Positions 1-18,495 of a stretch of DNA of 21,855 nt are shown here, piece by piece. The stretch spans positions 1 to 21,855 of the IMG/VR virus record IMGVR_UViG_3300042526_000881, one strand, 5' to 3'. The notes below the pieces were generated by a model. It was given only the letters and a program-made list of their open reading frames with translations, had not been told where the DNA came from and ran no database searches. Both the position numbers and the translations under genes were made by a program. Within the stretch, counting starts at the first letter, position 1; each line of letters begins with the position of its first letter. The stretch is from a virus.

Positions 1-373
1 GTTTCGTAATACTGGTCTCGTGGTTTCCTATTCCCAAGGCGACTATGTTCTTCGCGTAGGGCTCATAGAAGTCTGTGGCGGACCTTACCACTGCATCGAG
101 GTAGTCTCCTGTCTGGTGCTCAGGACGCACCCCGGTCTTGTTGGACCGAGGGTCCCATTTTCCACCCATTACGCAAAACAGATCTCCCCCATCGATGATC
201 CCAGCACCACGCTCCAATGCCTGGTCAAGGTGCTTCTTCTCCAGGTTTTGGTCGCAGTGAGGGTTATCATGATGGGCGTCCGACCTTAGCAAGAACCAAT
301 GCTCCTTCTGCTTGTTGCAGTCCAGTTTCACCCGTACCACATTCGGGCTGACGCCCTTTTCCAGTGAGAACAT
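1..373 (-). CDS. Metallophosphoesterase (calcineurin-like), 3' end cut by window edge
   Basis: An open frame of 124 codons reads leftward from ATG at 373 and leaves the window without a stop. It shows the metal-binding signatures of calcineurin-like phosphoesterases in order: D-x-H at residues 32-34 (SDAHH), GGD at 62-64 and GNHE at 116-119. The family uses two metal ions to hydrolyse phosphomonoesters or phosphodiesters; phage members act as nucleases, nucleotidases or phosphatases, and which one applies here is not visible. The start is supported by AAGGGG at 379-384, five bases upstream, which overlaps the stop codon of the preceding gene, suggesting translational coupling. It is the last visible gene of the leftward operon with two MazG-type enzymes, so a nucleotide or DNA-end processing role fits. 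The C-terminal histidine motifs lie outside the window. Confidence 0.85.
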   Translation of the reverse strand, partial: MFSLEKGVSPNVVRVKLDCNKQKEHWFLLRSDAHHDNPHCDQNLEKKHLDQALERGAGIIDGGDLFCVMGGKWDPRSNKTGVRPEHQTGDYLDAVVRSATDFYEPYAKNIVALGIGNHETSITK

Positions 374-2761: not shown

Positions 2762-2784
2762 GTCCCCCAGACAGAGCCGTTTTG

Positions 2785-5043
2785 ATGGATCAACAACAGT
2801 ACCGTTCCAATTGCATCAACACAGCCATCCACCTGTGCAAACATGGTATCCGGGTGATGCCAGCACAGTTCCGGTCGAAGGCCCCCCTCGGAGGCGTGGG
2901 GGAGGAAGCCTGGAACCACATCGCGACAAACAACATCAACCAACTGGCCGGGCTCATGCCGGCCGGGGCCTTCAATATCGGAATGGTCTTCGGCCCGTCC
3001 TCTGGAGTCCTCGACATCGAGCCCGACTCCGTGGAGGCCTCAGCGATCATCGAGCGGTTGATGGTGGAGAACGGCGTCCAGACGCTGGCCTACCAGTCTC
3101 GCCGGGGCGTCCATCGTATTTTCAAGTGGACAGATAAGCTCTCCCACCTCGGTAACAACCCGAAGACGACGCACGGGCTCGAATGCCGGGTGGGGTCAGC
3201 CGACAGGAGTTTCTATTCGATCTGCCCTCCCTCGATCCACCCGGACACTGGCGAGGCGTATGAGTGGCTGCCGGGATCTGCTCCCTGGCAGATATCCCCA
3301 GCGGAGATCCCCCAGAACGTCCTTGATTATATTCTTGCCAATGTACGAGTCAGCAAGGCCGGGGAAAGGACTCACGAGGTCTATAAAGAAGGCGATGGGT
3401 ATCTTCCGGGTGAAGGTGGGAGGCACGACTACCTGCTGAGTTTCAGCAAGTCGCTTTACTGCGACTGGATGCTCCCCAAGGAGGACTGCATGGATTTGAC
3501 CCGGCATATGTCTATGCGTATCGGGTCGTACCAGGAGCCCGGTCGTGGCGAGGTTGAACTCATCAATCTCTTCAAAGATCTTACCCGCCCGTCTGACCCG
3601 GTGAAGGAGATGCAGGCCAGCATCAGCATTGGTACTGTCAATGAGGTCAGCGACTTTATTCATGAGAAGTACCGTGAGAACTTTGAAGGGCCTGACCAGG
3701 AACTACCTGCCGGAGTTATGCACCCATTGATCGAGGCGGCCTCACGGCACGCCCGTGACGCCCAGATGCCCCGTAACCTTTGGATCATGTCGATCATCTG
3801 TGCTGCAGCCTCTGCGTTGGGCACCAGTACCTTTGTGAGAGTAAGCCCCGATCATCCGGTGATGGCAAACCAGTTGTACTGTTTCGGGGTTGGTGGATCA
3901 GGAACAGGCAAGAGCAAAACACTCAATGCAATTAACGCACCGTTCGCTTCATCAGAGACGTTATTGACAGAATCAACCCCTGAAGCTCTCACAACCGCCC
4001 TGTCTAAGTACACCCGTGGAATCATACTGGAGTTCCACGAAGGTAAGGATTTTTACAAGATGCTGGGTCGATACAACCAGCAGCCTGGAGCAGGATCAGA
4101 TAACAGCCTCTACCATAAGTGCTGGTCTGGGGATCGCATCCGAATGCAGCGTCAAAAGGGATCATGTTGGATCGAGAGACCGCACCTTGTGGTATCAGCA
4201 GCCATCCAGCGGTTGAACTTGAACCAGTTACCACAGAACGACTTGGTTGACGGACTGGGTCAGCGAATGATCGTTTACCCAATCGGCTCGGTGCCGAAGA
4301 AGGCGACCCGAAAAGCCTTGGCCGAGCACGCCGAGTTCATGCACTTCTGGCACGAGGTACTGGCTCGATTGATGGAGGTCAAGGTCACTGTCGGGAGTGT
4401 CCCGCTGACAGCAATGATGAACGGCACAGGTACTGTGACAAAGCCCTTGATCAACACGCTGACGGAGGATGCTCGAGAGGTATGGGAGGAGTATGCTGCC
4501 CTCAAGCGGTCTGACCAGGTTGAGAGTCAGTGGAGTGATCCAGAGCACCCCTTCCGATCTGACATTGTCCGTCACGCTGAGATGGCGTTGCGACTGGCCA
4601 ACGTGATCTTCATGCTGGACCATGCTGTCAACAAACAGACTTGGTATGACTGGAACGTGGCTTCTCAAGACTTCGGATCCATCCCGGCTGATGTGATGAA
4701 GCGGGCTATCATCCTCATGGAGTGGCTGTGGAAGCACAAGCAGGTCTACTTCGAGGGGCTAGTTGAAGCGGCCTTTGCAGCGGTCACGGGGGGCCACCTG
4801 CAGAAGGCAGAGACTATCCCAGCGAAGGTAGCCAAGTACGTCGGGGAACGCCGCCTCCGCGTTGAGCGGCACGTCAAGGAGGAAAGCTTTACGCTCAGGG
4901 ACTACTACCGTCTTCTGAGTATTAAGAAAGTGGAAGCCCAGCTCGAGCTGGACCTGTTTTTGAGAGAGGGCCATCTCGTAGACTTGGGAGTGCCCGAGGG
5001 CGGTAAGGCAGTACGGTATAAGTTTTTGGAGGTGAATCAGTGA
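2785..5043 (+). CDS. Primase-polymerase fused to DUF3987-type helicase
   Basis: This 752-aa replication protein has an N-terminal archaeo-eukaryotic primase/PrimPol domain and a C-terminal P-loop ATPase of the DUF3987 type. In the primase part, the metal-binding D-x-E is D77-I-E79 (GVLDIEPDS), the motif II histidine is probably H110 (RRGVHRIFKW), and the family's SICPPSIHP block is at 145-153. In the ATPase part, the Walker A is GGSGTGKSKT around 370-379 and a Walker B-like strand is IILEFHEGKDF at 413-423, followed by the family's GLGQRMIVY block near 490-498. Such fusions prime and unwind the phage genome. ATG 2785 is preferred over TTG 2782, but the ribosome-binding site is weak (ACAGAG). 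The gene lies immediately after a strong terminator, and its stop overlaps the next start (GTGA). Confidence 0.88.
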   Translation: MDQQQYRSNCINTAIHLCKHGIRVMPAQFRSKAPLGGVGEEAWNHIATNNINQLAGLMPAGAFNIGMVFGPSSGVLDIEPDSVEASAIIERLMVENGVQTLAYQSRRGVHRIFKWTDKLSHLGNNPKTTHGLECRVGSADRSFYSICPPSIHPDTGEAYEWLPGSAPWQISPAEIPQNVLDYILANVRVSKAGERTHEVYKEGDGYLPGEGGRHDYLLSFSKSLYCDWMLPKEDCMDLTRHMSMRIGSYQEPGRGEVELINLFKDLTRPSDPVKEMQASISIGTVNEVSDFIHEKYRENFEGPDQELPAGVMHPLIEAASRHARDAQMPRNLWIMSIICAAASALGTSTFVRVSPDHPVMANQLYCFGVGGSGTGKSKTLNAINAPFASSETLLTESTPEALTTALSKYTRGIILEFHEGKDFYKMLGRYNQQPGAGSDNSLYHKCWSGDRIRMQRQKGSCWIERPHLVVSAAIQRLNLNQLPQNDLVDGLGQRMIVYPIGSVPKKATRKALAEHAEFMHFWHEVLARLMEVKVTVGSVPLTAMMNGTGTVTKPLINTLTEDAREVWEEYAALKRSDQVESQWSDPEHPFRSDIVRHAEMALRLANVIFMLDHAVNKQTWYDWNVASQDFGSIPADVMKRAIILMEWLWKHKQVYFEGLVEAAFAAVTGGHLQKAETIPAKVAKYVGERRLRVERHVKEESFTLRDYYRLLSIKKVEAQLELDLFLREGHLVDLGVPEGGKAVRYKFLEVNQ
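5021..5036 (+). promoter_or_regulatory. Strong ribosome-binding cassette, also present at 19121
   Basis: The 16 bases AGTTTTTGGAGGTGAA occur identically at 5021-5036 and 19121-19136, each placing GGAGG six or seven bases before a start codon (GTG 5040, ATG 19139). The two copies are read in different frames by the upstream genes, so selection on encoded protein does not explain them. They decide the starts of two short genes. Confidence 0.7.
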
Positions 5044-5213
5044 GCATACTTCAACAGATCAAAGCATTGGAAACACCCAAGGTCGAACCGCCTGTCGTGG
5101 AGCGGAAGTACGACAATCTTGTCGTACTTGACCCCAAACTTGACCCGGATCCTTTCGGACTTCATGGCATGTCCTTGGCATACCGGCTGCAGTGTATGGG
5201 GTGGAGGGAATAG
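5040..5213 (+). CDS. Hypothetical protein, 57 aa
   Basis: A short frame begins at GTG 5040, overlapping the primase stop as GTGA, and ends at TAG 5211-5213, whose last base is the first base of the next start (TAGTG). GGAGG at 5028-5032 is seven bases upstream, one of the best ribosome-binding sites in the window. The product is proline- and charge-rich in its middle (TPKVEPPVVERKYD, DPKLDPDPFG) and ends GMSLAYRLQCMGWRE. I do not recognise it. The tight coupling on both sides, strong start signal and lack of any other explanation for this stretch support a real gene. It may act with the primase or the methyltransferase-like protein. Confidence 0.7.
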   Translation: MSILQQIKALETPKVEPPVVERKYDNLVVLDPKLDPDPFGLHGMSLAYRLQCMGWRE

Positions 5214-5884
5214 TGGCCAGAATCCTTGTTGCGTGTGAATTCAGCGGGGCCGTACGCGATGCGTTTCGTACCCTCGGGTTTGAGGCATACTCCTGTGACA
5301 TCCTCCCAGCGGATCCACCGAGCGAGTTTCACATCCAAGGTGATGTAACGGAGGTTCTGAATCAGCAGTGGGACTTGGTGATTGCTCACCCACCCTGCAC
5401 GTATCTCTGCAACAGCGGTGTTCGGTGGTTGCTGACTGATCCGACCCGATGGGATCGGCTCCAGGAAGGGGCTGAGTTCTTCAAACTGTTTCTCAATCTT
5501 GAGCATGTGCCTCGGGTCTGCATTGAGAACCCTATCATGCACAAGCACGCCAAGGCTATCATCGGGCTGTACAACCGAAAGCCGCAGATCATTCAGCCTT
5601 GGATGTTCGGGCATGGAGAGACGAAGGCAACCTGCCTGTGGCTTAAAGGTTTGCCACCACTTGAGCCGACAGACGTTGTACCTGGTCGAGATAATAGGAT
5701 TCACAGGATGTCGCCCGGGAAGAACCGCGGGCACCTACGATCGATTACCTACTCTGGAATTGCGCAAGCCATGGCTACGCAATGGGGTTCCCTTCTATGT
5801 CAGTTTACATCTACGCCCGAGTCTCCACTTTCGAGCAGCACATTCACGGCTTCTCGGTGGACAACCAAGTCACGTCAGGACTGA
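5213..5884 (+). CDS. C5-cytosine methyltransferase-like protein (phage type)
   Basis: This 223-aa protein matches a phage family distantly related to DNA C5-cytosine methyltransferases. It opens with the SAM-binding strand ARILVACEFSGAVRDAF (motif I region). It then has HPPCTYLC at about 58-65, carrying the Pro-Cys of catalytic motif IV, an ENP at about 103-105 (motif VI), and the family's closing block RSITYSGIAQAMATQWG. The predicted role is cytosine methylation or another C5 modification of phage DNA; the recognition domain is short, so specificity is unclear. GTG 5213 is chosen over GTG 5192 because GGAGGG lies at 5203-5208. About 31 Ser/Thr-rich residues after TQWG are unusual; they are encoded where the recombinase start is read in another frame. 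Confidence 0.8.
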   Translation: MARILVACEFSGAVRDAFRTLGFEAYSCDILPADPPSEFHIQGDVTEVLNQQWDLVIAHPPCTYLCNSGVRWLLTDPTRWDRLQEGAEFFKLFLNLEHVPRVCIENPIMHKHAKAIIGLYNRKPQIIQPWMFGHGETKATCLWLKGLPPLEPTDVVPGRDNRIHRMSPGKNRGHLRSITYSGIAQAMATQWGSLLCQFTSTPESPLSSSTFTASRWTTKSRQD

Positions 5885-7377
5885 CGTACGCCAGACTCAA
5901 CGGACGTCAACTCGGAGAGGAGACTAACTGCGGGCTCCCCGGTGTCTTCGTTGACGGCGGCAAGTCAGCCTACACGAAGAAGCTGGGTGAACGCCCCGGC
6001 GGTCTACAAATGATCGGAGTGCTTCAGCCCGGTGACACTGTCATCGCCACCGCAACTCACCGGCTGTTCCGCCGCATGGGTGACATGGTAGCGACGATGG
6101 AGCACTGGATTGACCGAGGCATCACTGTCGTCTTCACTGACTACCCGATGCTGTCAACAGATAATCCGAACGGCAAGGCCATGCTGCGGATCTTCGCGAT
6201 CATTGCCGAGATGAAGTCTGACCTCACTTCCGCCCGCGTGCGGGAGGCCCGAGCGATTGCCAAGGTCAAGCCAAAGACTCCGAAGGAGAACAAGCCCGTC
6301 GTACTGCCACAGGCCGAGATCCTGTCAAAGGATGTTGGCAGCATCATGCAGGCCATCTCCACCGAGCGGGACAAGAGTAAGTTCACATTCACCGGCAAGA
6401 TCCGAGCGTACATCCGAGTCTCCACCAAAGAGCAGACGGTTGAGCAACAGCGGGTCTGCATCATGAACATGCTGCCACAGGACATGCGTCATGCGGAGGT
6501 CGTATGGTACTCTGATGAGGGGGCCAGTGCATTCAAGACCAGCCTGCCAAAGCGGAAGGCAGGGGCCAAGCTAATGCAGGATCTGCAGCCTGGCGATATC
6601 GTACTGGCACTTCGACCTGACCGGCTGTTCCGATCCCTGCTGGACATGAGCAGGACGACCGAGTCTATCCACGCCAAGAACGCTTTCCTCATGACGATTG
6701 AGGGCGGTATCAAAACCGATACGACGTTCGGCAGGATGATGGTCAGCCTACTCAGTCTGCTTGCTGAGGTGGAGTCACAGGAGATCAGCCGGTCAACTCG
6801 TCAGGGCTTGCTAGTGGCCGTTGGCACATCGGCTAAGGCCAGGGCCGTCCGGATGCCGAAGTTCCTTCGAGGCGTGACTAGGCATCACCGACAGACTCAC
6901 TTCGACTTCCGGCAGTTCTTCACTGCCGAGGAAGTCATGAGCATGTACATCCAGTTGACCCTGACTGGGAAGAACTACAAGGACCGCCGGACAGCCTGCC
7001 GAGTGATCTCCAACAAGTGGCTCCGGAGGAAGGGGCTGCCCAGTGTGACTGGTGAGACCGGCGACACGATGTGCCGGTACAGGGCCAAACTGAAGGAGAT
7101 GCAGAAGCAGGAATTCTCTGAGCGTCGGGCCAAGGTGCTTGATGTGCTGGACAAGTACGAAGACCATCAGGACGTGATGTACCCGATCAATGTCACAACG
7201 GTGGCGTGGGTTGACCGGAGGCAGACGGAGTGGATGCGAGTCGCGAAGACAATCCCTGGCCGTCTGAAGGACAAAGAGGGATTGACGGCGATGGCGGCAG
7301 CGTGCCGTGGGCCAGAGAGCATTGTGGATTTGATGAGGAAGATCAACCGTCCTGCTGAACCAAAGGTATCCACTTAG
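5797..7377 (+). CDS. Serine recombinase with two tandem catalytic domains
   Basis: This 526-aa protein holds two resolvase-type catalytic domains in one chain. Domain 1 (about 1-155) has YARVST with R8 and S10, the same numbering as gamma-delta resolvase, then ERP (R66) and THRLFR (R89, R92). The usual Asp before Arg is His88, and the later AExE is AEMK. Domain 2 (about 200-345) has YIRVST (R207, S209), R253, PDRLFR (D275, R276, R279) and AEVES, so it looks intact. The last 170 residues are basic and helical, without the zinc ribbon or large recombinase domain of known serine integrases. The family cuts DNA through a 5'-phosphoserine and rejoins it. ATG 5797 is preferred (GGGG nine bases upstream); ATG 5782 is possible. 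It overlaps the methyltransferase gene by 88 bases. Confidence 0.85.
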   Translation: MSVYIYARVSTFEQHIHGFSVDNQVTSGLTYARLNGRQLGEETNCGLPGVFVDGGKSAYTKKLGERPGGLQMIGVLQPGDTVIATATHRLFRRMGDMVATMEHWIDRGITVVFTDYPMLSTDNPNGKAMLRIFAIIAEMKSDLTSARVREARAIAKVKPKTPKENKPVVLPQAEILSKDVGSIMQAISTERDKSKFTFTGKIRAYIRVSTKEQTVEQQRVCIMNMLPQDMRHAEVVWYSDEGASAFKTSLPKRKAGAKLMQDLQPGDIVLALRPDRLFRSLLDMSRTTESIHAKNAFLMTIEGGIKTDTTFGRMMVSLLSLLAEVESQEISRSTRQGLLVAVGTSAKARAVRMPKFLRGVTRHHRQTHFDFRQFFTAEEVMSMYIQLTLTGKNYKDRRTACRVISNKWLRRKGLPSVTGETGDTMCRYRAKLKEMQKQEFSERRAKVLDVLDKYEDHQDVMYPINVTTVAWVDRRQTEWMRVAKTIPGRLKDKEGLTAMAAACRGPESIVDLMRKINRPAEPKVST

Positions 7378-7585
7378 CAAGTTCTTCCCGTACGACGTAC
7401 AACCGACCCCCAATTCGAACCCCGGACAACCAGAGATGGCTGCCCGGGGTTTTTTTGTTTTTCAGCCCACGGGTAACCCACAGTCGAACAGTATCGTCGG
7501 TCACCTCAATGCCATACGTGGCGAGGATCGCAACCACCTCCTTCGCAGAGAGGTAAGGCTTCGATGCTTCAACTGAGGGGGCCAT
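7343..7585 (-). CDS. DUF1580-like helix-turn-helix protein, candidate excisionase
   Basis: This 80-aa protein has the pattern of DUF1580/MerR-like small DNA-binding proteins: YLSAKEVVAILATYG (recognition-type HTH start), TVRLWVTRGL, then a wing and GVRIGGRLYVVREELAKWI. I associate DUF1580 with Planctomycetes. Such short HTH-plus-wing proteins act as excisionases, recombination directionality factors or small regulators. It faces the tandem recombinase gene and overlaps its 3' end by 35 bases, so a partnership in excision or control of recombination is a fair inference. The recombinase terminator lies inside this coding sequence, where the opposite strand encodes TPGSHLWLSGV. The start at 7585 has a weak ribosome-binding site. 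A candidate promoter lies at 7627-7655. Confidence 0.78.
   Translation of the reverse strand: MAPSVEASKPYLSAKEVVAILATYGIEVTDDTVRLWVTRGLKNKKTPGSHLWLSGVRIGGRLYVVREELAKWIPLVQQDG
7418..7456 (+). terminator. Intrinsic terminator of the recombinase operon
   Basis: AACCCCGG (7418-7425) pairs with CCGGGGTT (7444-7451), with a minor CCA/TGG pairing inside the loop, followed by T7 (7450-7456). It lies 40 bases after the recombinase stop and falls entirely within the convergent DUF1580-like gene on the minus strand. Confidence 0.85.
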
Positions 7586-7619
7586 GCCGCAAATCCGAGA
7601 AAGATGATAAAACCGAAAG

Positions 7620-7668
7620 TGATAGATTTATAACAGTACAGGTATTGCAAGTCTAGCCTTGATAGATT
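7620..7668. repeat. Direct repeat TGATAGATT, two copies 40 bases apart
   Basis: TGATAGATT occurs at 7620-7628 and 7660-7668 in the gap between the DUF1580-like gene and the scaffold gene. Between them lies ATAACAGTAC (7630-7639), also present at 2504-2513. The two boxes overlap the -10 regions of the leftward and rightward candidate promoters, so they could be operators. Confidence 0.45.
7627..7655 (-). promoter_or_regulatory. Candidate promoter for the DUF1580-like gene
   Basis: On the minus strand, TAGACT (7650-7655; four of six) is followed by 17 bases and TATAAA (7627-7632). It points to the start at 7585, about 42 bases downstream. It overlaps the rightward candidate promoter. By-eye prediction. 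Confidence 0.4.
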
Positions 7669-7673
7669 CTCAT
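7645..7673 (+). promoter_or_regulatory. Candidate promoter for the structural operon
   Basis: TTGCAA at 7645-7650, a 17-base spacer and TCTCAT at 7668-7673, each four of six to consensus. It ends 38 bases before the scaffold start. A modest match, so an activator or phage-specific factor may be needed. It is the only intergenic gap near the beginning of the morphogenesis genes. Confidence 0.3.
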
Positions 7674-7711
7674 AGTTGGGAATAGTCCTCCCCCAGACAC
7701 AAGGAACCCCC

Positions 7712-8781: not shown

Positions 8782-9927
8782 ATGGCTCATAGTCTTGTAC
8801 CGTCCACGGTATCAGGTCACATCAACAGTGTCCGTGACCTGGCACCACGTTACTGGAAAGGTATTTCGGACCTCACCGTTCGAAACTTCCTGACCTTCTA
8901 CAACCTGCGGAAGTGGGGGTCCCTGACCTTCAACGCCCGCTCACACAGCCAGGTGTGGAACGCTCGCGTTAAGCAGCCAACCATTCTGCCAGCCGTGGAC
9001 AACCAGCCGATTGAGTTCGTGAACTGGGACACTGACATCCAGTACTACATCGGTATCAAGGGATACCGTGGATCTGACTTCCTGCCAGAGCAGGAATACC
9101 TGCAGGCTCAAGGTGCTCCGGAGCAGATCACCAATCGATACGAACGCAAGTCCAAAGAGATTGCTCAGGCAACTCAGGAACGCTTGTGTCACTCGTTCTG
9201 GAAAGACGGTAACGTCGCTGCCAATGCGTACGACTTCACCGGCATCAAGACCCCACTGAGCTATACAGCCGGCACGACCGGTGCTGCTGACTTGGTTGGC
9301 CAGCCTGATGGAACGTACGCAGGTCAGTCCTGTGTGCTCGGCAACCTTGGTGGATCATGGTCAAGCAACATGGCCACGAAGCCAAACGCTAACCTTGCAA
9401 AGGACTGGCCTTTCGGTCAAGGCTCAAGCGAGTACGACGGCACTAGCCCACTGATCGTGAACTACGCTGCTACTGGCTGGGGCACTGGTGCAACTGATTG
9501 GGCAACCAACGCAGTTGCTGCTACGAGCTATGCTCAGACAGCAATGCTGCACCGCGGTGGCCAGTCAATGGTTGGTGCCAAGACTCAGGTGGCAATGGCC
9601 TCTGAAATGTTCACCGACTTCAAAAACTCATTCCGGGAAAACAACCGTCAGATCATGCCGTTCACGGACGGTGACCTGGGCTATCCAGGTGAGACTCTGA
9701 TGGTCGACGGCATGGTCTACTCAATGGACTACGCAATCCCATCAGGTGAGGCCTACATGTACTTGCCACAGTACCTGGAAGCTTTCTTCCTGCACAATGA
9801 CATCTACGGTGTCATGGGTCCTGAGTACAGCATCCCACACGTTGGGTACCTGTACTACATCAGCACCTACGGGAACTTCAAGTTCCTGCCGAAGTACTTG
9901 TGCCGATTCGTGTCTGAGACTGCGTGA
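8782..9927 (+). CDS. Major capsid protein (probable HK97 fold)
   Basis: The 381-aa product follows the scaffold gene and has the size and composition of a phage major capsid protein. It has few cysteines, many aromatic residues, an N-terminal helical arm (VSGHINSVRDLAPRYWKGI), a Gly/Ala/Ser-rich central loop region (about 165-255), and a C-terminal part with a run of beta strands. The segment around 85-135 (DTDIQYYIGIKGYRGSDFL, then a helix with RYERKSKEIAQATQERL) recalls capsid proteins that bind DNA-filled heads as T-number hexamers, but I cannot place it in a named family. GGAG at 8772-8775 precedes ATG 8782. A stable hairpin follows the stop, as expected for a highly expressed gene. Confidence 0.75.
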   Translation: MAHSLVPSTVSGHINSVRDLAPRYWKGISDLTVRNFLTFYNLRKWGSLTFNARSHSQVWNARVKQPTILPAVDNQPIEFVNWDTDIQYYIGIKGYRGSDFLPEQEYLQAQGAPEQITNRYERKSKEIAQATQERLCHSFWKDGNVAANAYDFTGIKTPLSYTAGTTGAADLVGQPDGTYAGQSCVLGNLGGSWSSNMATKPNANLAKDWPFGQGSSEYDGTSPLIVNYAATGWGTGATDWATNAVAATSYAQTAMLHRGGQSMVGAKTQVAMASEMFTDFKNSFRENNRQIMPFTDGDLGYPGETLMVDGMVYSMDYAIPSGEAYMYLPQYLEAFFLHNDIYGVMGPEYSIPHVGYLYYISTYGNFKFLPKYLCRFVSETA

Positions 9928-13586: not shown

Positions 13587-14224
13587 CAATCGATCTTCCA
13601 CTCTCAGTCAATTTCCCCGGACGACATCTGTGTCCCGCGTGCGGGCTACCGTTGCCGCCAAGTTCATTCTCCCCCAGAGGTGTGTGTATGTCATGCGATG
13701 AATCAGCAACAACAGCGGGTCAGATCGCCGTCATGGCAAGTAAGGTTCCCCAACGTGGATTCAAGGAGGCACTGGCCGAGGTCAAGAAGGCGGGGCGACC
13801 GCTTACACTTGACGTGGCCGAGGCGGCCATGGATGAGCTTGGTGGTGCCTCTCAGCTTGGCAGGATGATGGCTGAGGACCTCAAGAAGTTGAGGGGTGAA
13901 GGTCTATCCGAGGAGCAGATGGTCTTCCACGAGGTCGACTACAAAACCGTGAAAGGACTTTACGAGGCGTTGATACGCCTTGCCACTGAGCGTGACAAGA
14001 TGGTCGGTGAGACCGGGGACCCACTCGATGGGATCTCTGAGCAGGACTTGCTTGCAATCGCCAGTCAGGCGGCATCACTCCGAGTTGAGGCCGATCCTGA
14101 CTACCGGCGGCAGATCATGCAACAGGTCCTTGAACTGGACCACAACCTGATCCTTGAGTTCGCCGGCCTGGCTCTCGACATCGTTGACAGCGGCCCAAAG
14201 GTTGAGGTGATTGATGTCAACTAA
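13583..14224 (+). CDS. Zinc-ribbon protein, candidate small terminase subunit
   Basis: This 213-aa protein begins at GTG 13583, overlapping the previous stop as GTGA, with GGTGGAG just upstream. Residues 17-38 carry two Cys pairs (CPAC and CMSC), a likely zinc ribbon. The rest is helical: PQRGFKEALAEVKKAGRPLTLDVAEAAMDELGG could include a helix-turn-helix, and later helices are acidic. It overlaps the large terminase start by 11 bases, so the gene pair is probably translated together. Small terminase subunits recognise the packaging site and sit at this place, and DNA-binding motifs fit. A dedicated small terminase signature is not visible, so the call rests on position, size and DNA-binding potential. 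An N-terminal zinc ribbon is not typical of known small subunits. Confidence 0.6.
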   Translation: MTIDLPLSVNFPGRHLCPACGLPLPPSSFSPRGVCMSCDESATTAGQIAVMASKVPQRGFKEALAEVKKAGRPLTLDVAEAAMDELGGASQLGRMMAEDLKKLRGEGLSEEQMVFHEVDYKTVKGLYEALIRLATERDKMVGETGDPLDGISEQDLLAIASQAASLRVEADPDYRRQIMQQVLELDHNLILEFAGLALDIVDSGPKVEVIDVN

Positions 14225-15983
14225 CATTGATAAGATCAGGGCATCACTTACGCAGCGACGTGATATCCAGCAGGGTCTTGCGGCTGCAGCCAAGGTGGCC
14301 AAGCAGAAGCTCAACGCCTTGGATATGTTCAGGCCCACGATCTACCAAGAAGCCGTTGTCAAGTGCGATGCCTCCGAGATTCTGGTTCAAGGGGGAACTC
14401 GCTCCGGCAAGTCTACAATCGTCGCGGTGATGATCGCTGCGTACCTGCTCAACAAGCCCATCACATTTGCGGACGGCACTCAGCATAGCGTGCGAGAGCA
14501 GGGTTGGGCCGGACGTCCGGTCACAGTGTGGCTCATCGGTTTGCAACTCAACCACATCGGTCAGACGATCTATCGTTTGCTCTGTCGACCGGGTGCTTTC
14601 GATATGGTACGTGACAAGAAGACCGGGCTGTGGCGAGCGTGGCAGCCTGGCCGTATCCCCGGCGACGAGGACATCCCTGTTGAAGACCGCAAGCCCGCCC
14701 CGCCGTTGATCCCTCCATCAGAGATTGCATCTGAGTCATGGGACAACAAGGCCAAGCATGAGTTCGCCAGTCTCACCATGAGGGACGGATCATGGGTCTA
14801 CGCCTATGCGTCAAGCGGTGCGGTGAAACGCGGAGACCCTGTCAACCGCGTATGGATCGATGAGGAGATCGAGAACTCGGAGCACTACCCTGAATGGCAG
14901 AGTCGTCTGTCTGACCGCAAGGGAAGGATCTACTGGACATCGTGGCCGAACATGCGGACGCCCGCGTTAATCGCTCTGTACCGGCGGTGTGTGGCTCAAC
15001 GTGATGAGGTTGAACGTGGGGTCCGGGTAAAGGCGGACGTTGTTAACTTCAAGTTCCGCGGATCCGACTCCCCCTTCGTAGACGATGAGGAAAAGCGGAA
15101 GCGTGCCGAAGGTTGGACCGAGGATCAGCTTCGAGCCCGCGATCACGGGGACTTCGTCATGGACACAATCCAGGCGTACCCCGAGTTCAACGTGAAGTAC
15201 CACTGTGTGGACTACGGCCCCAACAGCCCCCTCAATGACAAGGTCACGGAGGCAATGCGGAAGCTGAACTGGAACGTCCCACACGACTGGTGCGTCGACC
15301 TAATCCTCGACCCAGGTACAACTAGGCCTGCCTTGCTGTGGGCGGCCATACCCCCCAAGGAATTCTGGGACGACGGGGAACCCTACCACATCATCTTTCG
15401 AGAGATGGCCATTCCCAATATCGATGCCGCCATGATGGGATTGCGAGCAAAAGCCGCGGATCCGGGGCGGAGATACTCCCGTTTTATCGGGGACCGGAAG
15501 GCTGGAGACCAGACACCGATGGGGTTTGCGTGGGACGTGTTCGAGCAATACTCCCGGGAGTTCCGCAAGGCGGGGTTGAAATGTCAACTAACAGGTGATA
15601 TGTTTCTCAGAGGTGAGACCATCTGGGTTACACGGTCTATGAAGTTGCGGAGCCTTATGCGGTCTCGACCGAGCGGAAGGCCCCGCCTCCGCGTAGTTCC
15701 GCACATGTGCCCCACGCTGGTTAAGCAATTGGAGACCACCGTCAAACAGGTGGCCAAGGAAGCTGTACTAGACAAACTGGCCCCGGGGCAGGTACATGAC
15801 GTCTTGGATACCTGCGAGTATTACGCGGGGTTTGAGCCTACATTCTTATCACCGCCGCCGGGGCCAGCGATCAGCGACCCAGGTCAAGCCATGTTTGACA
15901 GTGATAAGAAGTTCCTTGACGGGATCTTCAAGTTGAATAAGAAAAACGATACCAGGGGACCGATCGTTCTTGGTATGCCATAA
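14214..15983 (+). CDS. terL: Terminase large subunit
   Basis: The 589-aa protein is the ATP-driven DNA packaging motor and headful or site nuclease. In the ATPase domain, Walker A is GGTRSGKS at 60-67, Walker B is VWIDEE at 213-218, and the coupling motif is TSWPN near 242-246. In the RNase H-like nuclease domain the three acidic clusters are visible: D366 (LILDPGTT), D427 (FIGDRKAGDQ) and D532 (DVLDTCEYY). It acts at the portal vertex of the prohead. ATG 14214 is preferred over the TTG at 14211 because GAGGTG at 14204-14209 gives sensible spacing. It starts inside the end of the small-terminase candidate. The length is within the normal range. No intein or frameshift is seen. Confidence 0.95.
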   Translation: MSTNIDKIRASLTQRRDIQQGLAAAAKVAKQKLNALDMFRPTIYQEAVVKCDASEILVQGGTRSGKSTIVAVMIAAYLLNKPITFADGTQHSVREQGWAGRPVTVWLIGLQLNHIGQTIYRLLCRPGAFDMVRDKKTGLWRAWQPGRIPGDEDIPVEDRKPAPPLIPPSEIASESWDNKAKHEFASLTMRDGSWVYAYASSGAVKRGDPVNRVWIDEEIENSEHYPEWQSRLSDRKGRIYWTSWPNMRTPALIALYRRCVAQRDEVERGVRVKADVVNFKFRGSDSPFVDDEEKRKRAEGWTEDQLRARDHGDFVMDTIQAYPEFNVKYHCVDYGPNSPLNDKVTEAMRKLNWNVPHDWCVDLILDPGTTRPALLWAAIPPKEFWDDGEPYHIIFREMAIPNIDAAMMGLRAKAADPGRRYSRFIGDRKAGDQTPMGFAWDVFEQYSREFRKAGLKCQLTGDMFLRGETIWVTRSMKLRSLMRSRPSGRPRLRVVPHMCPTLVKQLETTVKQVAKEAVLDKLAPGQVHDVLDTCEYYAGFEPTFLSPPPGPAISDPGQAMFDSDKKFLDGIFKLNKKNDTRGPIVLGMP

Positions 15984-16314: not shown

Positions 16315-18495
16315 ATGCAACCAACGGCAGAAAATATCCAGCAGTACCTGCTCGGACCCATTGTCAGTCAGTGGTACTCTCGCTTCACTTCCGCGGAGAA
16401 GGCGAAGGAGCGATTCAATGTCATGGCGAAGTTATGCCGTCAGTTCCTCGGATCCTCTGCCAAGGCAATGTGGGAGGATACGTTCCGTGAAGAGTTCTAC
16501 CCGAAGGTGGCAGCACCTCAGTTCATGGTATCGCTCAACAAGGCGTTTGAGCTTGTAGCCATCATCGGGCCTACCCTCTACTGGCAGAACCCGGCGAGAG
16601 AAGTCCAGAGTAAAGACGCGATTGATCAGACACGTATCGCCCAACTGATGGGCGTGGTTGATGAGGAGATGCTGAAACAGGTTCAGCAACAGCAGGCACA
16701 AGATACAGAGCAGAAGGAGATCCGCAACTCCCTCGCTACTACAGTCATGGAGTACATTGGTCGTGAGCATCCCGGCGGGACAAAGATTGACAACGAACTC
16801 TCCATCCAGGACGCCCTTGTCACCGGGCGTGGATGCATGTGGACTGAGACGTACTCTAACCGGTCTACCGGTGAGCCGATGGTGGGCTCCTTCTACGACC
16901 CAGTGGATAACCTACTCATCGACCCTGACGCCAAGGATCCCGCATGGAGAGACGTGCGGTGGATCGCTCGTCGCCATGTCGAACCGGTCTGGGTTGTTGA
17001 GCGTCGATTTGGATACGAACCCGGCTACTTGAAAGGCCGAGGTACGCACATCTCATCCGAGTACATGTCTCGTATGGAGGTGGAGGTCGGCAAGGGCAAC
17101 TCCATGTACCAGGACCAGATCGAATGGTACGAGATCTGGAGTACCGGTGGTATCGGTGCTCGAGTCACCGGCATTGACGCACAGATGGGTCAAGCCCTCG
17201 ACCAGTTGACTGGCGATAACTGTTACCTATGCATCACACGCAACCTCATGCACCCACTGAACCTGCCACCAATGTTGGTGAGTCAGGGCGGCCCGGAGCA
17301 CATCCAAGATGCACTGCGGTGGCGTACGTCGAGATACGGGTCGGTATTCGAACTGTGGCGTGACCGTAAGTGGCCGGTCGAAGTGGTGGACTTCTACCCA
17401 GTCATCGGATCGTGCTGGCCGATGGCGGTACTCGGCCCCGGTATCGGCTCACTGCTGGCGATGAACATTCTGTTGGTATCTCACCTGTCGATGTCATGGG
17501 ACCGGCGGCGAGATATCATTGCGGCTAACGGTGCCTACGCCGACGAGGTCGAGGCAGCGATCAAGGGTGAAAACAACCCGGCGATTATCAAGATCAACTC
17601 TGCTTCACAGATGGGTATCTCCGACCTTGTCGCATTCGTACAACGGCCAGAGGTGCAGGGCAATCTGCTGGAGTGGGTTCAGTACCTCGACAACCAGTTC
17701 CAGATGGCCACGGGGCTGGATGACATTCACTACGGTGTCAGCCAGAAGCAGGCCCGTGTCAGCGCGGACGTGAACGCCAAGCAGTCTGCTGCCAACGTAC
17801 GGCCGGAGAAGATGGCCACCGACGTCCACGAGTTTGTGGTCAACATTGCCAAGAAGGAACTCTGGCTGGCCGCTCAGTACATCAAGGGAGAGCAGTTGCG
17901 GTCACTCCTCGGAACATGGGGAGCTATGGCGTGGGACACCCTCCTCGGGTCAATGGACATCGACACGCTGTTCCGTGAGATGGAAGTTATCATCGAAGCC
18001 ACCGACATGCGTCGGCCAAACCGTGACAAGGACATGTCTGACCTGAACGCCATCGCCCAGTTCTACTTGCCGGCTTCCCAGAAGTACAGTGAAATGACTG
18101 GCGACGAGAAGCCGCTTAACGCTTTCATGCACAAGTACTTCTCTTCGATGCAGATGAAGAACCCAGAAGACTTATTCTTCGGCCCATGGCACCCAGCACC
18201 TGATCCACAGATGCAGCAGATGCAGGCTGAGGCTCAACAGGTTGAGATGGCTAAGACCGCGGCGACCACCGAAGAGATTAAGGCCAAGACAGTTGCAAGA
18301 CTGGTGGATGCCCAGTATAAACAGCAGGGGGCTAACGCTCCTGCTGCCCAGAAGATGAAGTGGGCTGAGATGTTCAACGCTCAGAAGATGAAGATGCAGG
18401 ACGAGTCCCACCTGCAGAAGATGGTCCATCTGCAAGAGCAGGCGGACATACAGGCCGAGGCGGCCCGTAACAAACCCAAGCCGGGAGGCAAGTAG
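16315..18495 (+). CDS. Portal protein
   Basis: This 726-aa protein forms the dodecameric ring through which DNA enters and leaves the capsid. Evidence is its position after the terminase, size, and features of large portals. The N-terminal region has YWQNPAREVQ and a Gln-rich segment (about 120-135). The central part has SFYDPVDNLLIDPDAKDPAWRDVRWIARR, a motif style typical of portals, a VVDFYPV strand and a long helical stem region. Near 465-500 is QMATGLDDIHYGVSQKQARVSADVNAKQ, like the 'S...TATE' helix of portals. The last 100 residues are a Met/Gln/Lys-rich coiled coil, probably the barrel and tail end. The upstream binding site is weak (AGG), so translation may be coupled to the preceding gene. 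Confidence 0.88.
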   Translation: MQPTAENIQQYLLGPIVSQWYSRFTSAEKAKERFNVMAKLCRQFLGSSAKAMWEDTFREEFYPKVAAPQFMVSLNKAFELVAIIGPTLYWQNPAREVQSKDAIDQTRIAQLMGVVDEEMLKQVQQQQAQDTEQKEIRNSLATTVMEYIGREHPGGTKIDNELSIQDALVTGRGCMWTETYSNRSTGEPMVGSFYDPVDNLLIDPDAKDPAWRDVRWIARRHVEPVWVVERRFGYEPGYLKGRGTHISSEYMSRMEVEVGKGNSMYQDQIEWYEIWSTGGIGARVTGIDAQMGQALDQLTGDNCYLCITRNLMHPLNLPPMLVSQGGPEHIQDALRWRTSRYGSVFELWRDRKWPVEVVDFYPVIGSCWPMAVLGPGIGSLLAMNILLVSHLSMSWDRRRDIIAANGAYADEVEAAIKGENNPAIIKINSASQMGISDLVAFVQRPEVQGNLLEWVQYLDNQFQMATGLDDIHYGVSQKQARVSADVNAKQSAANVRPEKMATDVHEFVVNIAKKELWLAAQYIKGEQLRSLLGTWGAMAWDTLLGSMDIDTLFREMEVIIEATDMRRPNRDKDMSDLNAIAQFYLPASQKYSEMTGDEKPLNAFMHKYFSSMQMKNPEDLFFGPWHPAPDPQMQQMQAEAQQVEMAKTAATTEEIKAKTVARLVDAQYKQQGANAPAAQKMKWAEMFNAQKMKMQDESHLQKMVHLQEQADIQAEAARNKPKPGGK

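Follow-up and report, generated by a model that had tools for sequence, protein, structure and literature searches.

Here, we show using profile searches, structure prediction and comparison with related phage records that a tailed phage encodes a serine recombinase whose single chain contains two genuine catalytic domains of the resolvase fold. The gene lies in a 21.9 kb fragment (IMG/VR record IMGVR_UViG_3300042526_000881; 21,855 nucleotides), the whole of which is called the window below. Known serine recombinases carry one catalytic domain per chain and assemble in fours, and the preliminary description of this DNA had marked the doubled domain as a departure from them. This assessment is borne out by 50,697 phage and 72,556 plasmid records, in which no place covered 80% of the tandem protein and the matches listed were all single-domain. 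A literature search likewise returned no paper describing tandem resolvase domains. The architecture is therefore unusual relative to the records searched; a protein with two Resolvase domains may already be listed in a database.

Two resolvase-fold domains in one reading frame

The recombinase is encoded by a single, unbroken frame (Table 1). An alternative in-frame ATG at 5782 would yield 531 aa; homologues begin at the 5797 codon. Both YxRVST starts reported for this frame, at S10 and S209, are present, as are the RLFR boxes that follow them (R89/R92 and R276/R279). A PF00239 search of the contig returned exactly two matches, both within this stop-free frame and both far above the cut-off of 23.3 bits: one at 5803–6270 (profile 1–142, E 4.4e-27, 88.9 bits) and one at 6406–6813 (profile 3–137, E 1.6e-29, 96.9 bits). 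PHROGs and NCBIfam likewise give two recombinase-similar stretches, and domain 2 aligns with gamma-delta/Tn3 resolvase over its whole length (phmmer 5e-10). The features that define the serine recombinase superfamily, PF00239 with a nucleophilic Ser and core Arg/Asp, thus occur twice. Chance does not account for this pattern, because two matches at E<1e-26 coincide with the same architecture in other contigs.

Table 1. Recombinase locus and surrounding features, in window positions.
Feature	Position or residues	Strand	Remarks
Prim-Pol/DUF3987 primase-helicase	2782–5043		5' of recombinase
Tandem (two-headed) serine recombinase	5797–7377	+	526 aa; open frame, two PF00239 matches, homologues
Catalytic domain 1	5797–6270	+	residues 1–158; PF00239 88.9 bits, catalytic columns, dN/dS
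Domain 1 residues	S10 5824–5826; H88 6058–6060, then R89, R92; K140 6214–6216; R147		
Domain 1 helix-E-like helix	residues 124–154		resolvase-like predicted secondary structure
Inter-domain linker, variable	6271–6396	+	residues ~159–200; dN/dS 0.10–0.12, pLDDT <50
Catalytic domain 2	6397–6831	+	residues 201–345; PF00239 96.9 bits, phmmer, dN/dS
Domain 2 residues	S209 6421–6423; D275 6619–6621; R276, R279; E326 6772–6774		
C-terminal all-helical domain	6832–7374	+	residues 346–526; no Pfam match in 8 members
Small convergent HTH protein, 80 aa	7343–7585	−	weakly HTH_17/excisionase-like
Conserved non-coding block	7586–7675	.	between HTH gene and scaffold-like gene; alignment of 8 genomes
Scaffold-like protein	after recombinase locus		named by position and appearance; no family match
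Capsid-like protein	8782–9927		named by position and appearance; no family match
Large terminase	14211–15983		
Portal	16315–18495		

An AlphaFold model built from 8 sequences contains two resolvase-type alpha/beta domains with helix-E-like helices, and its C-terminal part is helical. Gamma-delta and Tn3 resolvases are the top PDB matches of the predicted halves in Foldseek, and are the closest solved structures by sequence as well as by fold. The relative placement of the domains carries no confidence in the whole-chain model, and their arrangement is uninformative because the pTM is only 0.36.

Is the chain made and maintained as one protein? The linker has no family-wide start codon preceded by a ribosome-binding site, which makes a separately translated domain 2 unlikely, and an internal start yielding such a protein was discarded as a candidate. 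In close relatives, pairwise dN/dS is 0.017–0.032 for domain 1 and 0.030–0.049 for domain 2, compared with 0.05–0.11 for the C-terminal part and 0.10–0.12 for the linker; the low values in both domains indicate that both are maintained. The sole wider pair, the window and relative G002, gives 0.215 for domain 1 and 0.078 for domain 2, higher than in close pairs and at near-saturated synonymous sites.

Relatives in two phage groups

With the capsid and terminase proteins as queries, we collected 27 related records, of which 13 have PF00239 matches, always exactly two and always in a single open frame. The proteins of these 13 contigs (group A) lie at the same locus and are full-length and colinear with the window protein (51–67% identity). 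Records without a match are mostly fragments: a sibling contig begins inside the recombinase gene (residue 448), and the other match-less contigs whose ends were inspected start or break off close to the locus. Four group-A relatives are circles of 64.7–67.9 kb, with terminal overlaps of 87, 127, 181 and 967 bp.

A DNA-pattern scan of IMG/VR for the DRLxR...G...YxRVST spacing added three contigs of 67, 91 and 107 kb (group B), the largest with a 129-bp terminal overlap. Their protein has 475 aa and two PF00239 stretches, and is colinear with residues 1–396 of the window protein at 30% identity (E 7e-47). Gene order is shared with the window, and capsid, terminase and portal are 26–33% identical. 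Further two-domain proteins, which the preliminary description had proposed to look for, thus exist in both groups. It had also named a sequencing error joining two genes as a finding that would overturn it; as the fusion recurs in 13 more contigs of group A and in a relative of only 30% identity, a sequencing or assembly artefact linking neighbouring genes has a negligible probability.

In a tree of the separate domains, domain 1 of group B groups with the other domain 1s (support 94/82) and all tandem domains stand together against 15 single-domain recombinases (93/96); branches are long and support for domain 2 is weak (51/45). The simplest reading of these sequences is that one old tandem event, either duplication or fusion, preceded the split of groups A and B. 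Further degenerate pattern scans of IMG/VR gave only chance matches beyond group B. Among 398 Pseudomonadota genomes there was no profile match at E≤1e-20, a weak negative, and a single tandem-pattern match (L155), the reversed control pattern matching in three genomes. Three other candidates (L172–L174) proved to be ordinary single-domain resolvases.

Beyond the tandem recombinase, the complete genomes contain neither a PF00239 protein nor a tyrosine integrase. Some encode an HTH_3 regulator, and a temperate life style is therefore possible. The distant, circular L149 (relative G429, 106.7 kb) has an HTH_3 regulator of the Cro/CI type and no tyrosine integrase. No integrated copy or close relative emerged when 84,980 genomes were scanned by pattern. 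Inverted-repeat pairs of at least 18 bp at a distance are absent from four complete genomes, and no inversions separate near-identical contigs. We therefore set aside a DNA-inversion switch, for which short imperfect sites would escape the search.

Active sites, the C-terminal domain and neighbouring genes

In gamma-delta numbering, Y6, R8, S10, Q14, Q19, D36, R45, R68 and R71 are kept in 17 of 17 group-A domain copies. Seven of them (Y6, R8, S10, D36, R45, R68 and R71) are invariant in both domains even when the distant group-B protein is included; gamma-delta/Tn3 resolvase and Hin/Gin share these seven residues and the same catalytic fold. S10 is the nucleophile, and R8, R68 and probably R71 contact the scissile phosphate (PMC4499144). 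By alignment, both domains carry apparently intact sets of active-site residues.

The two sites are nonetheless not the same. The preliminary description had found the expected Arg, Asp, Arg and Glu in domain 2, and D275, R276, R279 and E326 are indeed retained. It had also noted that domain 1 keeps the Ser and the Args with His88 in place of Asp and Lys in place of Glu, which is as we find it: His88 occupies the D67 column and Lys140 the E118 column, where domain 2 has Asp275 and Glu326. Across the family these two changes differ in standing. The E118 column holds Lys, Arg or Ala in domain 1 of both groups and always Glu in domain 2, and this loss is a common trait; the His at D67 is confined to group A, group B having Asp, and does not extend beyond one clade. 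Judged by these columns, domain 1 could be impaired, through D67H in the group-A clade and through loss of E118 in all members. R125 is present in every domain 1 and lost in domain 2 of group A, a weaker point because of a one-residue alignment ambiguity.

What follows domain 2 is less familiar. Modelled alone, the ~180-aa C-terminal domain reaches a pLDDT of 75.6 and a pTM of 0.69, and has no PDB fold match at E<1; a falcilysin match was weak and judged to be chance. NCBIfam gave no match for this part and Pfam only chance-level ones, and a resolvase-type HTH match after domain 2 is absent. Recombinase (PF07508) and zinc ribbon (PF13408) domains are absent from 8 of 8 members scanned at E≤3, in agreement with the earlier statement that the C-terminal part lacks both, and we rejected its assignment to either type. 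The domain is presumed to serve DNA binding and/or oligomerization.

The HTH gene overlaps the 3' end of the recombinase gene in convergent orientation and is found in every contig that covers its place (48–72% identity). Its consistent position beside the tandem recombinase is new in this analysis. Some members show weak similarity to HTH_17 (E 0.019) and to the phrog_66 excisionase (E 0.014). In group B, an HTH protein of 82 aa occupies this place in the same orientation (L149:10716–10964), with only marginal homology to the group-A protein. The HTH protein is a candidate accessory or directionality factor of the recombinase. As the gene is divergent from the scaffold–capsid operon, it may be such a factor, a regulator of this late operon, or both. 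Its reading frame spans a terminator-like hairpin with a T-run on the opposite strand (7418–7458). The adjoining non-coding block carries TATTGCAA, GATTCTCAT and CCCCAGACA and is probably a promoter region, a resemblance for which we discarded it as a crossover site.

In all genomes the recombinase locus marks the boundary between primase and scaffold. Upstream, an open reading frame on the plus strand (5192–5884) overlaps the start of the recombinase gene by 88 bases in another frame; it has no Pfam match and looks methyltransferase-like by eye. A non-coding stretch of ~750 bp 5' of the primase gene (2030–2780) includes 64-bp direct repeats (2145–2208 and 2268–2331, 91%), and relatives have many short ACCTGGT-type repeats at the equivalent place; it is a candidate replication origin or regulatory region. 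Window positions 1–364 are 93% identical to 2567–2930 of relative G016, compared with ~73% for the rest of the genomes, which points to recent local exchange; the G002/G014 pair has a comparable locally exchanged stretch of 464 bp. Most relatives share a dATP/dGTP diphosphohydrolase gene (PF18909; 835–1263, minus strand). The idea of a Z-genome derived from this gene was dropped: PurZ family matches are absent from the relatives, and there is thus no sign of a 2-aminoadenine genome.

How does the tandem protein relate to known systems? Small serine recombinases have one N-terminal catalytic domain, whereas the window protein and all its homologues have two; their short HTH directly follows helix E, where here a ~180-aa domain of unmatched fold is found, and domain 1 differs from them in lacking E118. 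Large serine recombinases, or serine integrases (phrog_95, CcrA/B/C, Bxb1), are phage-borne, similar in chain length and likewise extend C-terminally beyond the catalytic domain, but they contain PF07508 and a zinc ribbon; the tandem protein has neither and doubles the catalytic domain. TnpA of the IS607 family is a further serine recombinase whose dimer and order of domains are unusual, and it is associated with a winged-helix module for DNA binding (PMC6188088, PMC4058570). TnpA has a single catalytic domain and its DNA-binding domain is N-terminal in the same chain, whereas here domain 1 starts at residue 3 with no IS607-type winged helix before it and the HTH is encoded by a separate neighbouring gene. 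In terms of a phage integrase module, with integrase and excisionase at an attP, the adjacent small HTH gene, weakly similar to HTH_17/excisionase, could be the excisionase counterpart.

Assembly on DNA and alternative readings

How could a chain with two catalytic heads act? Serine recombinases occupy each crossover site as dimers, and their active assembly is a tetramer (PMC4499144, PMC9943657). We consider the chances evenly balanced that the protein is an active site-specific recombinase in which each chain is a covalent asymmetric dimer and two chains make up the four-domain synapse. An ancient tandem duplication or fusion would have joined the two catalytic domains; one chain would then supply both catalytic domains of the dimer on one crossover site, and its one new C-terminal domain would help to recognize the DNA. 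A synaptic complex of four catalytic domains would consist of two chains, S10 and S209 would both cut via 5' phosphoserine links, and strands would be exchanged by rotation, the HTH protein presumably acting as accessory or directionality factor. Because the domains differ, domain 2 alone having an E118 equivalent, the dimer on DNA would be inherently asymmetric. The two-chain pseudo-tetramer of the preliminary description is plausible. We advance only tentatively the stricter proposal of a new class of obligate covalent asymmetric dimers, in which both domains would cut, each at a half-site position fixed by the one novel DNA-binding domain of its chain and by the HTH protein as dedicated accessory, two chains sufficing for the entire four-strand exchange. 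The ~40-aa linker would allow domain swapping between chains, which counts against an intrachain dimer. The lack of distant inverted-repeat pairs and of inversions among near-identical contigs, the low-confidence placement of the domains and the possible impairment of domain 1 also weigh against the main reading. The biological role may be integration or resolution.

The preliminary description had suggested that one half might be regulatory. In its plain form, domain 1 would be structural or regulatory and only domain 2 would cut, a synapse then requiring four chains or half-site cleavage. The absent E118 equivalent (always Lys, Arg or Ala), the His for D67 in group A and the position of the DNA-binding candidate directly after domain 2 only are in its favour. 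A pseudo-enzyme, however, should have lost one or more core residues, whereas Ser, Tyr6 and the core Arg/Asp are invariant in domain 1 of every homologue across both groups, and in close pairs the dN/dS of domain 1 is the lowest of the protein. Since core residues are kept and both domains are under strong purifying selection, we do not favour a regulatory half and hold this reading to be rather unlikely. Less probable still is an eight-domain machine, with domain 1 forming a regulatory tetramer that bridges accessory sites and domain 2 a catalytic one. The flexible, fast-evolving linker and the conserved asymmetric changes would fit two assemblies, and regulatory Sin/Tn3 subunits bridge accessory sites in such a way; regulatory resolvase subunits have the same fold (PMC9943657; PMC2428073). 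Against it, no DNA-binding segment follows domain 1, and a domain with a regulatory task only could dispense with the catalytic serine and arginines. The same retention weighs on domestication, in which the protein no longer recombines DNA and regulates the late (capsid) operon or serves genome resolution or packaging: the full catalytic set is kept twice, and a pure regulator needs none. Its core position beside capsid genes in two phage groups and the failure to find an invertible segment or a host-integrated copy speak for such a role, to which we nevertheless assign a small probability.

In serine recombinase tetramers the subunits are identical, and position-specific roles within the complex are therefore hard to probe. 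The tandem protein offers two non-identical heads that can be mutated separately: S10A and S209A mutants could show which half-site each head cuts, and also whether all four cuts are needed. In addition, nature would here offer a precedent for recombinase tools made of a single chain that address asymmetric sites without the mixing of two proteins.
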